From the NCBI GenBank assembly GCA_016235155.1, contig JACRLW010000026.1, positions 15,771 to 79,770 of the forward strand: 64,000 nucleotides of DNA. Reading direction: 5' to 3'. The notes beneath the pieces are model-generated. The model made no database searches. It was not told the origin of the DNA and saw nothing but the letters and a program-made list of their open reading frames with translations. Shown here piece after piece: positions 30,843-35,018 of this stretch (position 1 is its first letter; the number at the start of each line of letters is the position of its first letter). Made by a program: the position numbers and the translations under genes. Source of the DNA: Planctomycetota bacterium (GTDB lineage: Bacteria; Planctomycetota; UBA1135; UBA2386).

Positions 30843-31901
30843 TCACGCGCGCACGACGACCGCGTGATCGCCGCGCGCGCGGAAGGCGCCGACGACCGCG
30901 GCGGCAAGCGTGCCCGCGTCGTTGAGACGCCGCGTCGCGAGCGTCGCGATGCGCTCGGGCAGCGCCAGCAGCAGTCCGCCCGAGGTCTCGGCGTCGAAGA
31001 TCATCGACGCGAGCGCATCGTCGACGCCGGCGTCGATCGCGACGCGAGCCGATCCCGCGACGCGTGCCTTCTTCCCGCCGCCGGAGACCGCTCCGGTGCG
31101 CGCGAGTTCGAGCGCGCCGGCGAAGACCGGCAGCGCGCCGGAACGGAGTTCGAGCGTGAGCCTGGCGCCGTCGGCCATCTCGCGGCCGTGACCGGCCAAC
31201 CCGAACCCGGTGACGTCGGTCGCGCCGTGCACCTCGAGATCGAGGACAGCACGCGCCGCGGCGCGGTTCAGCGTCGCCATCTGCTGCATCGCACGCAGGA
31301 CGAGTTCGCCGTCCGCGTCGACCAGGCCCTTCTTGATCGCCGTCGACACGGTGCCCATTCCCAGCGGCTTGGTGAGGATCGCGACGTCGCCCTCGCGCGC
31401 ACCCGCGTTCCGCCAGAAGCGGTCGGGATGCACGATGCCCGTCACCGCGAGACCGTACTTCACCTCGTTGTCGCGCACCGAGTGACCGCCCGCGAGGGCA
31501 CCGCCGGCTTCGCGGATCTTCTCGAGCCCACCGGCGAGGACTTCGCCGAGCAACTCGAGGTCGAGCTCGGCGGGCCACCCGACGATGTTGAGCGCGGTCA
31601 GCACCTCGCCCCCCATCGCGAAGACGTCGGACAGGGCGTTCGCCGCGGCGATGCGTCCGAACCAGCGAGCGTCGTCGACGATCGGCGGGAAGAAGTCCGT
31701 CGTGACGACGAGCGCGCGATCGGCGTCGAGACGATAGACCCCCGCGTCCTCGAACCCCTCGGTGCCGGCGAGGAGCGCGGGATGATGGAGCGGCCCCAAC
31801 TTGGCGAGGACCTGACCCAGGCCCTCGGACGGCAGTTTGGCGGCTCAACCCGCGGCGCAGGACCAGTGGGTCAGCCGCTTGTCGTTCGGATCGGGGGTCA
31901 T
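30843..31901 (-). CDS. selD: Selenophosphate synthetase SelD, itself selenocysteine-containing (in-frame UGA)
   Basis: Read through one UGA, this is a 352-residue SelD that makes selenophosphate from selenide and ATP. From ATG 31901 the protein runs through SCAAG, the UGA at 31847-31845 (residue 19), then AAKLPSEGLGQVLAKLG. The UGA falls exactly where E. coli SelD has its active-site Cys17, three residues before the essential lysine (here K22). Downstream are TTDFFPPIVDDARWFGRIAA, NALSDVFAMGG, LAGGHSVRDNEVKYGLAVTG, ATDVTGFGLAGHG and DAETSGGLLLALP, all standard. A SECIS-like hairpin follows the UGA. An alternative start at TTG 31799 would lose the catalytic N terminus and is unlikely. It lies 32 bases after selA in the same operon. 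Confidence 0.93.
31806..31826 (-). promoter_or_regulatory. SECIS-like hairpin in selD mRNA
   Basis: On the minus strand GAGGGCCT, a GGGTC loop and AGGTCCTC form an 8-pair stem with one G-U pair. The stem begins 18 bases and the loop 26 bases after the UGA, inside the 16-37 base window typical for bacterial SECIS elements. The loop contains GGUC, as in the E. coli fdhF SECIS. SelB would bind it to deliver selenocysteyl-tRNA. Confidence 0.7.
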
Positions 31902-31933: not shown

Positions 31934-33247
31934 TCAGCACGAGAGTGCGGAGCGGATCACGCGCGCGACCTCGTCGAGGTCTTCGTCGGCGAGCGTGCGC
32001 GCATCGAGCCAGACGGCGTCGTCGGCGACGCGGCAGAACACCGCGGGCCGCGCGAACTGACGCAGTCGTTCCGCGACTCTTGCGCCGCCGGGAAGCACGA
32101 CCGCGAACGACGGCAACGCGCGCGCCGGATTCGCGCCGCTGCCCGCGAAGGACTCGCTCACGCGCACGCTCGCGCCGTCGATCGACAGCGCAACGGACAG
32201 GCGCGTGGCGACGTCGCAAAGGGCATCGGGACTGCGCGCGATCGCGCGCAGCGCGGGGACCTCCGCGAGCGGGTCACCGTCGCGATAGATCAGGAGCGTC
32301 GCCTCGAGCGCGGCGAGCGTCAGCTTGTCGCAGCGGACGGCGCGGTAGAGCGGGTGCGCGCGGATGCGTGCGACGAGCGCCGCGTCGCCGAGCACGATCC
32401 CGCACTGCGGTCCGCCGAGCAGCTTGTCGCCCGAGAACGACACGACATTCACGCCCGCCGCGAGGCTGTCGCGGACCCGCGGTTCGTCGCCGAGTCCCTC
32501 CGGCACTTCGGGCGCGAGCAGGCCCGAGCCGAGATCGTCGAACACGCAAACGCCACGGGCGCGGCCGAGGGTCGCGAGTTCGCCGAGCGCGGGCGACGCG
32601 CAGAAGCCGAGCACGCGGAAGTTGCTGGTGTGGACCTTCAGCAGCATCGCGGTCGCGGGACCGATCGCGCGCTCGTAGTCGCGGAGGTGCGTACGGTTCG
32701 TCGTGCCGACCTCGACCATGCGGCAGCCGGACTGAGCCATCACGTCCGGCATGCGGAAGCCGCCGCCGATCTCCACGAGTTCGCCGCGCGACACCACGAC
32801 TTCGCGGCCCTCGGCCAGCGCGCGCAGCACGAGCACGACGGCCGCCGCGTTGTTGTTGACGACAATCGCCGCCGGCGCGCCGGTCAGCTCCGTGAGCAGC
32901 GCCGCGACGGCCTCCTCGCGCTGGTTTCGCTGGCCGGATCTCGGGTCGACCTCCACCACCGCGTAGCCCGCGGCGATCCCCGTCGCGTTGATCACCCGCC
33001 GGTGTCGCTGCGCCAGGCTCGCGTGCACCGCTTCCCGCAGTCGGGCGACCAGCGCGTCGCGCGTCGCATCGGATCGACCCAGCGACCCGTCGCGGACGGC
33101 GTCGCGCACCGCGTCCAACAAGCGTCGTGCTTCACGGACGACGGCGCGCTGCGGCAGATCCGAGAGGCGAGCGTCGCGAGCAATCGCATCCACCGCGGGC
33201 AAGCCGCGCAGGAGGTCGGCGACGTCGCTGCGGTCCGTGGTGTCCAT
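31934..33247 (-). CDS. selA: L-seryl-tRNA(Sec) selenium transferase SelA, with an internal ~20-residue gap
   Basis: A 437-residue PLP enzyme that converts Ser-tRNA(Sec) to Sec-tRNA(Sec). SelA motifs are clear: LLRGLPAVDAIARD at the N terminus, HRRVINATG, IVVNNNAAAVVLVLRAL, VVSRGELVEIGGGFRMPDVM, EVGTTNRTHLRDY, LLKVHTSNF and VSFSGDKLLGGPQCGI with the PLP lysine. Between NATG and GYAVVEVD the family normally has VLHTNLGRA plus about a dozen residues. Here NATG runs straight into IAAGYAVVEVD, so about 20-22 residues including the NLGR arginine are missing without a frame change. The enzyme may be impaired, or the gap may be an assembly error. ATG 33247 is preferred over ATG 33268. selD follows 32 bases later. 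Confidence 0.9.
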   Translation of the reverse strand: MDTTDRSDVADLLRGLPAVDAIARDARLSDLPQRAVVREARRLLDAVRDAVRDGSLGRSDATRDALVARLREAVHASLAQRHRRVINATGIAAGYAVVEVDPRSGQRNQREEAVAALLTELTGAPAAIVVNNNAAAVVLVLRALAEGREVVVSRGELVEIGGGFRMPDVMAQSGCRMVEVGTTNRTHLRDYERAIGPATAMLLKVHTSNFRVLGFCASPALGELATLGRARGVCVFDDLGSGLLAPEVPEGLGDEPRVRDSLAAGVNVVSFSGDKLLGGPQCGIVLGDAALVARIRAHPLYRAVRCDKLTLAALEATLLIYRDGDPLAEVPALRAIARSPDALCDVATRLSVALSIDGASVRVSESFAGSGANPARALPSFAVVLPGGARVAERLRQFARPAVFCRVADDAVWLDARTLADEDLDEVARVIRSALSC

Positions 33248-33262
33248 CGTTCGGAGCGTCGC

Positions 33263-33269
33263 TACCATA
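33263..33269. promoter_or_regulatory. Overlapping divergent -10 elements for recJ and selA
   Basis: The word TACCATA is TACCAT (33263-33268) for recJ on the plus strand, ending 7 bases before its ATG, and TATGGT (33269-33264) for selA on the minus strand, ending 16 bases before its ATG. One seven-base core could thus serve both genes, which would then be transcribed mutually exclusively. Confidence 0.45.
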
Positions 33270-33275
33270 GCCGCG

Positions 33276-35018
33276 ATGCCGCTGGAGCGCCTCCCGAGCC
33301 GCGTGCCGGAACAAGACCCTCGCGAGCGTGCGCTGGCGCGGACCTTGGGGCAGAGCGAACTCCTCGCGCGCGTGTTGCTCGCGCGCGGCTGCGACGATCC
33401 GGCGCGCGCTCGCGTCCTGTTGCGCCCCGACCTTTCCTCGCTCGCGGACCCGTTCTCGTTCGTGCAGATGGAACGTGCCGTCGACCGGATCCGCGCGGCG
33501 ATCCGCGGACGCCAGCGGATCCTGATCCACGGCGATTACGACGTCGACGGCATCAGCGGCGCGGTCCTCCTCCGCCAGTTCCTGTCGTTGCTGGAAGTCG
33601 ACGCCACGGCGTTCGTGCCCGATCGCCGCGACGGCTATTCGTTCTCGGCCGCGTCGTTCGCGGCGGTGGAATCCGGCGGTTACGCGCTCTGCATCTCGGT
33701 CGACAACGGCACGAACGCAACGACCTGGATCGAGCGGATCCAGCAGGCGGGCTGCGACGTGATCGTGACCGACCATCACGGGACATCGGACAACGTCGCT
33801 CCGGCCTATGCGGTCCTGAATCCGCGGCTGCCCGACGCCGGCTATCCCGACCGCGACCTCGCCGGCTGCGGGGTCGCGTTCCGCCTCGCCGCTGCGGTCG
33901 CGCAGTCGTTCACGCGCGGCCGGCGCGAGGGCGACGAGTTCGCGGGCTTCCTCCTCGACGCGATGGCCTACGTGGCGCTCGGCACGATCGCCGACGTCGC
34001 GCCGTTGCGCGGCGAGAACCGCGCGATGGTCTACCACGGGCTACGCGCGCTCGCCGTCAGCAAGAACCCGGGCATCCGCGCCCTGCTCGACTGCGCCGGT
34101 CTCGCCAATCGCACCGCCGAGGCGGAAGACATCGCCTTCCGGATCGCGCCGCTGATCAACGCCGCCGGGCGCATGGGTCACGCGAACGACGCCGTCCGCC
34201 TGCTCACCGCGCGCGGCTATCAGGAGGCGCAGGAGGCGGCGAAAGTCCTCGAGCGCCACAACGAACAGCGGCGGCGCATCGAGCGCGAACTGGTCGAGCG
34301 GGTCCGCATCGCCGCCGAACGCTGCGACGACGCCGTGCTCGTGCTCGCGGGCGACGACTGGCACGCGGGCGTGCTCGGCATCGTCGCGGCGCGACTCGCG
34401 GAGACGACCGGCCGGCCGGCGATCCTCGTGACGTTCCAGGGCGAAGTCGGCCGCGGCTCGGGGCGGTCGTCGGGCGGTCTCGACCTGCGCGAGGCGCTCC
34501 ACGCCTGCGCACCTCTGCTCGTCAGTCACGGCGGCCATGCCGCCGCCGCCGGACTCGAGATCCGCCGCGAGCAGTTCGACGCGTTCCGCGCGGCGATCAA
34601 CGCCCATGCGGCCCACGCCGTGCGCACGCCAAACGACCTGACGCTCGACGGCACGGTGACGTTGGCCGAACTCGATCCGCGCGAGGTGCGAGGACTCGAC
34701 CAGCTCGGACCCTTCGGGGCCGGCAACCCGCGTCCGGCATTCGTCACGCGCGGCGTGCGGATGGCCGGCGTGCCGGCGATCGACGCGCGAAGCGGCGATC
34801 TCCGCTTCCGCGTCACCCAGGACGGCACGCTGCGTCCGGCGCGCATGCGCAGCGGCACGCGTTGGTTCGAACGCGTGCGCGCCCTCGACGGACCGTTCGA
34901 CGTCGTCCATGCGCCGCGCACGCCGCTGCGCGCCGAAGACGGTCCGGTGGAACTCGTCGTCGCCCGCATCCTGCGGCCGGACGGCCCCTCGCTGGCGGCC
35001 CCGCTCGAAGCGGACTGA
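33276..35018 (+). CDS. recJ: Single-stranded-DNA-specific exonuclease RecJ
   Basis: 580 residues, normal length. The DHH core shows HGDYDVDGISGAVLL near residue 86 (metal Asp residues), VDNGTNATTWIE, VTDHHGTSDN at 163-172 (the DHH motif) and LINAAGRMGHAND. The DHHA1 part has RGSGRSSGGLDLREALHA and LLVSHGGHAAAAGLEI, followed by the OB-like C-terminal domain. It degrades ssDNA 5' to 3' in mismatch, base-excision and recombination repair. Longer upstream readings are antisense to selA; ATG 33276 sits 7 bases after a -10-like TACCAT. polA follows 12 bases later, so the two repair genes form an operon. Confidence 0.97.
   Translation: MPLERLPSRVPEQDPRERALARTLGQSELLARVLLARGCDDPARARVLLRPDLSSLADPFSFVQMERAVDRIRAAIRGRQRILIHGDYDVDGISGAVLLRQFLSLLEVDATAFVPDRRDGYSFSAASFAAVESGGYALCISVDNGTNATTWIERIQQAGCDVIVTDHHGTSDNVAPAYAVLNPRLPDAGYPDRDLAGCGVAFRLAAAVAQSFTRGRREGDEFAGFLLDAMAYVALGTIADVAPLRGENRAMVYHGLRALAVSKNPGIRALLDCAGLANRTAEAEDIAFRIAPLINAAGRMGHANDAVRLLTARGYQEAQEAAKVLERHNEQRRRIERELVERVRIAAERCDDAVLVLAGDDWHAGVLGIVAARLAETTGRPAILVTFQGEVGRGSGRSSGGLDLREALHACAPLLVSHGGHAAAAGLEIRREQFDAFRAAINAHAAHAVRTPNDLTLDGTVTLAELDPREVRGLDQLGPFGAGNPRPAFVTRGVRMAGVPAIDARSGDLRFRVTQDGTLRPARMRSGTRWFERVRALDGPFDVVHAPRTPLRAEDGPVELVVARILRPDGPSLAAPLEAD

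Follow-up and report, generated by a model that had tools for sequence, protein, structure and literature searches.

SelD of a planctomycete is predicted to be a selenoprotein that carries selenocysteine at its catalytic position

Results

The window analysed here, a stretch of 64,000 nucleotides (G000:C70:15771-79770), belongs to a planctomycete draft genome of 5.34 Mb in 152 contigs that is 85.5% complete, and carries adjacent selA and selD genes on its minus strand. The selA gene (31934..33268, minus strand) encodes an L-seryl-tRNA(Sec) selenium transferase of 444 aa, as judged by the profiles TIGR00474 (441.9 bits) and PF03841 (380.3 bits). Between the end of its stop codon (31934) and the first base of the selD ATG (31901) lie 32 bases, selA being the upstream gene; an arrangement with selA directly 5' of selD occurs in 29 of 30 loci in the window's family. 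We infer that both genes are transcribed as an operon. Inspection of the sequence upstream of the selD ATG revealed no obvious Shine-Dalgarno motif. At the other end of selA, its ATG (33268, minus strand) and the ATG of a recJ-like gene on the plus strand (33276) represent apparent starts located only seven bases apart (window 33268-33278); if so, the two genes diverge and their start regions overlap.

Translation of selD from 31901 to 30843 (minus strand) with TGA taken as a residue yields a protein of 352 aa with a single internal stop, namely the TGA at 31847-31845, which is codon 19 of the gene; selD terminates at its own TGA stop codon at 30845-30843. The read-through N terminus reads MTPDPNDKRLTHWSCAAG-U-AAKLPSEGLGQ..., and the predicted protein is matched by the selD profile TIGR00476 over residues 9-316 (343.7 bits, cut-off 125) and by the AIRS and AIRS_C domains (PF00586, PF02769), both above their cut-offs. 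Alignment with the E. coli SelD structure (PDB 3u0o, E=3e-60) places residue 19 on the catalytic Cys17 and Lys22 on Lys20, so that the protein has the catalytic Cys/Sec position and the Lys three residues further on that characterize SelD. The original prediction, made from the sequence alone, had put the in-frame TGA at the Cys17 position, the essential lysine three residues downstream and selA 32 bases upstream on the same strand, and had stated that reading through the TGA restores a full SelD N terminus; translation, profiles and alignment bore out every coordinate and statement that was checked.

It had also been anticipated that a gene caller would truncate selD and miss the active site. 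Indeed, the only open reading frame with an ATG, GTG or TTG start listed in the selD frame comprises 318 residues from TTG 31799 and is devoid of the active-site loop. This ORF call could be taken to indicate that selD is a pseudogene, or that a truncated protein lacking the loop is made from a downstream start such as this TTG. We give this reading next to no credence. The residues preceding the UGA (RLT......G) and the AAKL following it are kept in relatives while several synonymous sites in the same segment vary, the selD frame contains no further stop, and this is the only selD of a genome that also holds selA, selB and tRNA-Sec.

To describe the distribution of the UGA codon (31845..31847, minus strand), the aligned codon was read directly in 110 loci, some of which are second copies from the same genome. 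It was TGA in 66, TGC in 31 and TGT in 13 cases, and nothing else was found in this alignment of Sec- and Cys-type SelD genes. The in-frame UGA thus aligns with Cys in homologues, which is the pattern used to recognize a bacterial selenoprotein gene. Within the window's family, TGA is present in 29 of 30 loci, the window included, meaning that 28 of the 29 other loci share it at the same codon; the remaining locus (L024) has TGT, that is Cys. Relatives up to the level of the order comprise 101 genomes with a SelD match in 96, and setting aside one weak paralogue and two fragments without N terminus left 93 assessable genes, 91 of which contain exactly one in-frame TGA. In a phylum sample of 392 genomes, 140 of 150 SelD matches among the matches listed have a TGA within them, a count of genes rather than of individually checked positions. 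The closest named record (L047), again from a Planctomycetota bacterium, has a SelD with 82.5% identity. The Gly18 codon that adjoins the UGA on its 5' side (31848..31850, minus strand) is GGT in every family locus, the Cys-type gene included, although elsewhere in SelD only ~15% of the glycines are encoded by GGT.

A TGA lies one base away from TGC and TGT, and in a draft of this fragmentation and completeness it might have arisen by missequencing or misassembly of a Cys-type selD. However, the codon is TGA in 28 other genomes of the family and in many other phyla, and it is followed by a constrained hairpin (see below), which renders this explanation exceedingly improbable. Dozens of independent genomes share this TGA, and a local sequencing error is thereby excluded.

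Downstream of the UGA, a putative bSECIS hairpin, CGAGGGCCU-GGGUC-AGGUCCUCG, is predicted at 31805..31827 (minus strand), with the 5' arm at 31827-31819, the loop GGGUC at 31818-31814 and the 3' arm at 31813-31805. Counting the U of UGA as position 1, bases 21-29 pair with bases 35-43 and enclose a loop of five bases. The spacing from UGA to loop is 26 nt, the stem measures 9-10 bp and the loop starts with an apical GG. In the published bSECIS model, an apical loop of 3-9 nt with a G in its first two positions sits on a stem of 4-16 bp at a distance of 16-37 nt from the UGA (PMC13188914), and the geometry of the predicted hairpin agrees with this model in every respect. Considered singly, the window hairpin had only a weak advantage over dinucleotide shuffles and synonymous nulls. 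As the single-sequence fold was not decisive, comparative tests were used instead, and the case for the hairpin as a putative bSECIS element rests on its relatives rather than on the window sequence by itself.

In 28 distinct sequences of the family, pairing is seen in 97.2% of cells, a value reached by none of 500 shuffles, and pairing dropped to 26-64% when the hairpin partner was slid. Pair counts and RNAalifold revealed two-sided compensatory changes at two pairs (G-C to C-G and A-U to G-C). A synonymous null, obtained by redrawing the codons of each amino acid, predicts about 5-6 pairs, whereas nine of nine form in most family members (P about 0.003 or less). In the genus of the window the effect is less pronounced (P 0.07-0.08), since the amino-acid sequence there is in itself favourable to pairing. 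Two loci that keep the UGA have a weaker stem in this register (L037, 6/9 pairs; L046, 7/9 pairs). Uncorrected synonymous identity along selD is highest at codons 66-78; once amino-acid composition is corrected for, synonymous constraint is strongest at codons 25-32, the segment occupied by the hairpin, which rank first among 337 eight-codon stretches of selD.

The Cys-type SelD of the family (L024, G012:C14) is the only one of its kind therein, and its hairpin region retains 6 of 9 pairs, which is no better than its own pair-count null. Its genome still encodes tRNA-Sec and SelB, and a change from Sec to Cys has probably taken place in this lineage. A hairpin whose role lies in Sec insertion would be expected to decay after the replacement of Sec by Cys, which agrees with this state; as a single case, L024 illustrates rather than tests this idea. 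Two further observations concern other genomes. In a member of the phylum, about 1.6 kb separates two co-oriented SelD genes (G160:C3:82633-86251), one with and one without TGA, which are possibly Sec/Cys duplicates. Another genome (G040, 92% complete) has a strong SelB match without a clear SelD or a strong tRNA-Sec match, which points either to gaps in the sequence or to SelB as a relic.

The genome of the window holds the complete decoding set. In addition to SelA and the single SelD, it encodes a tRNA-Sec (C131:41665-41759; RF01852, 77.7 bits) with anticodon TCA (UCA in RNA) and an encoded CCA end, and a full-length SelB of 649 aa on contig C132 (TIGR00475, 327 bits, cut-off 242). The original prediction had named lack of selB and tRNA-Sec as evidence against Sec in SelD, and both were found. 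Near-cognate read-through of UGA occurs in other systems, and one may therefore ask whether Sec-tRNA is indeed what reads the codon, as opposed to insertion of Cys or Trp or a genome-wide reassignment of UGA. However, selD itself terminates at TGA, implying that UGA serves as a stop as well in this genome, while a dedicated tRNA-Sec and SelB are present and the shape of the hairpin is that of a bSECIS as employed in Sec decoding. We consider decoding by another route extremely unlikely. On the grounds of conservation, frame, machinery and hairpin, sequencing error, pseudogene, downstream start and general reassignment of UGA were all rejected.

A search of the genome for known selenoprotein families with stops read through returned three candidates beyond SelD, so that at least three further genes have an in-frame UGA at a redox-active position. 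The first is a PrxQ-like peroxiredoxin (L266:1381-1947, plus strand; G000:C82) whose in-frame TGA (1621-1623) takes the place of the peroxidatic Cys (TPG-U-TKEVC) and is followed by a hairpin that is predicted to be strong. The second is SelW-like (L269, minus strand; G000:C41:55723-55932), with the motif EYCVV-U (CxxU) and a TIGR02174 match over the cut-off, and the third is thioredoxin-like (L270, minus strand; G000:C130:18733-19068), with W-U-GPC replacing WCGPC. Each of the three is likely to be a selenoprotein, and SelD is probably not the sole user of the Sec machinery; the notion that it is the only selenoprotein of the genome was dropped. A coding-potential scan for in-frame UGA over 2.09 Mb including the window (about 39% of the genome) gave 42 candidates, among which SelD alone was clear; most of the remaining ones looked, by eye, like adjacent genes, and the family-based search was the more productive of the two. 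A Sec-type formate dehydrogenase was not found, an internal TGA being absent from all six molybdopterin oxidoreductase matches of this genome. A molybdopterin oxidoreductase match (L128, G000:C23:8434-10623) contains one in-frame TAG within the part that is matched, and may be a case of frameshift, split gene or read-through. No TIGR03167 match, that is no tRNA 2-selenouridine synthase (ybbB/selU), was detected in the 85.5% complete genome. On present data, selenophosphate would thus serve Sec synthesis only, and this absence is not final because the draft is incomplete.

Discussion

With an intact read-through frame, a conserved UGA, a constrained hairpin and all decoding genes observed, selD of this planctomycete almost certainly encodes a SelD that is itself a selenoprotein, with Sec predicted at UGA codon 19 and insertion directed by the downstream hairpin. 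Covariation and synonymous constraint in the hairpin, the decoding genes and the conserved UGA uphold the original prediction in this respect, as does the literature its remark that Sec-containing SelD is known from other lineages: Sec-SelD is among the commonest bacterial selenoproteins (PMC5029168, PMC13188914). In 2006 Sec-containing SelD already counted as a standard family, FdhA and SelD being described as the most widespread of all bacterial selenoproteins (PMC1794560), a survey of 2015 found Sec, always at the same position, in 19% of the detected prokaryotic SelD genes (PMC4561486), and a survey of 2016 counted 394 Sec-SelD proteins in 383 organisms (PMC5029168). The window's selD is a fresh example of this long-described type. 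It has the same, here predicted, Sec at the catalytic Cys position in the N-terminal selenium-binding loop, a predicted bSECIS directly 3' and selA, selB and selC, and differs from previously described bacterial Sec-SelD (PMC5029168, PMC4561486) in lineage detail only, namely in the selA-selD pair, the hairpin sequence and the near-fixation of Sec in a planctomycete order.

The comparison extends to the structures. E. coli SelD (3u0o) is homologous over nearly the whole length with Cys17/Lys20 aligned to Sec19/Lys22, and its loop reads G-C-GC-K, with Cys, as compared to G-U-AA-K in the window. The loop motif is the same in Aquifex aeolicus SelD (PDB 2yye, 2zod, 2zau): the deposited chain 2yye has GCAAK where SelD of the window has G-U-AAK. 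Selenoproteins together with the full Sec machinery are on record for other planctomycetes (PMC4807772). The Porphyra isolates P1 and P2, members of the same phylum, have a complete Sec-insertion gene set and several selenoproteins, comparable to the gene set and the candidate selenoproteins seen here, and both possess a 2-selenouridine synthase, whereas none was found in the window's genome.

Mechanistically, we propose that a ribosome translating selD would meet the UGA at codon 19, where SelB carrying Sec-tRNA(Sec) would bind the hairpin at 31827-31805, and that in the cell Sec would be inserted at this codon in place of termination. Sec19 would then be the catalytic residue, which together with Lys22 in the flexible N-terminal loop may convert selenide and ATP to selenophosphate. 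SelA, whose gene is apparently part of the same operon, would use selenophosphate to generate Sec-tRNA(Sec), in line with the known pathway leading from selenophosphate via SelA to Sec-tRNA(Sec) (PMC13188914, PMC1794560). The latter would in turn supply SelD itself and the other selenoproteins of the genome. Since production of SelD requires Sec and its gene shares an apparent operon with selA, codon 19 could conceivably act as a selenium sensor: at low levels of Sec-tRNA, translation would stop after 18 residues and the pathway would be turned down. This regulatory loop might perhaps be fixed across the whole planctomycete order, and the invariant GGU might be part of the signal. We regard this extension as rather doubtful and offer it as speculation.

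Misannotation of selenoprotein genes is a known problem (PMC4561486), and standard ORF calling would truncate selD with loss of the active site. The literature consulted says little on this planctomycete order with regard to Sec-type SelD, where it is close to universal. The present analysis adds its near-universal occurrence in one order, its predicted hairpin, the selA-selD pairing and a Cys exception. The latter provides a natural contrast within one family, in which a Cys-type SelD, with hairpin pairing at chance level, is found in a genome that has kept SelB and tRNA-Sec.
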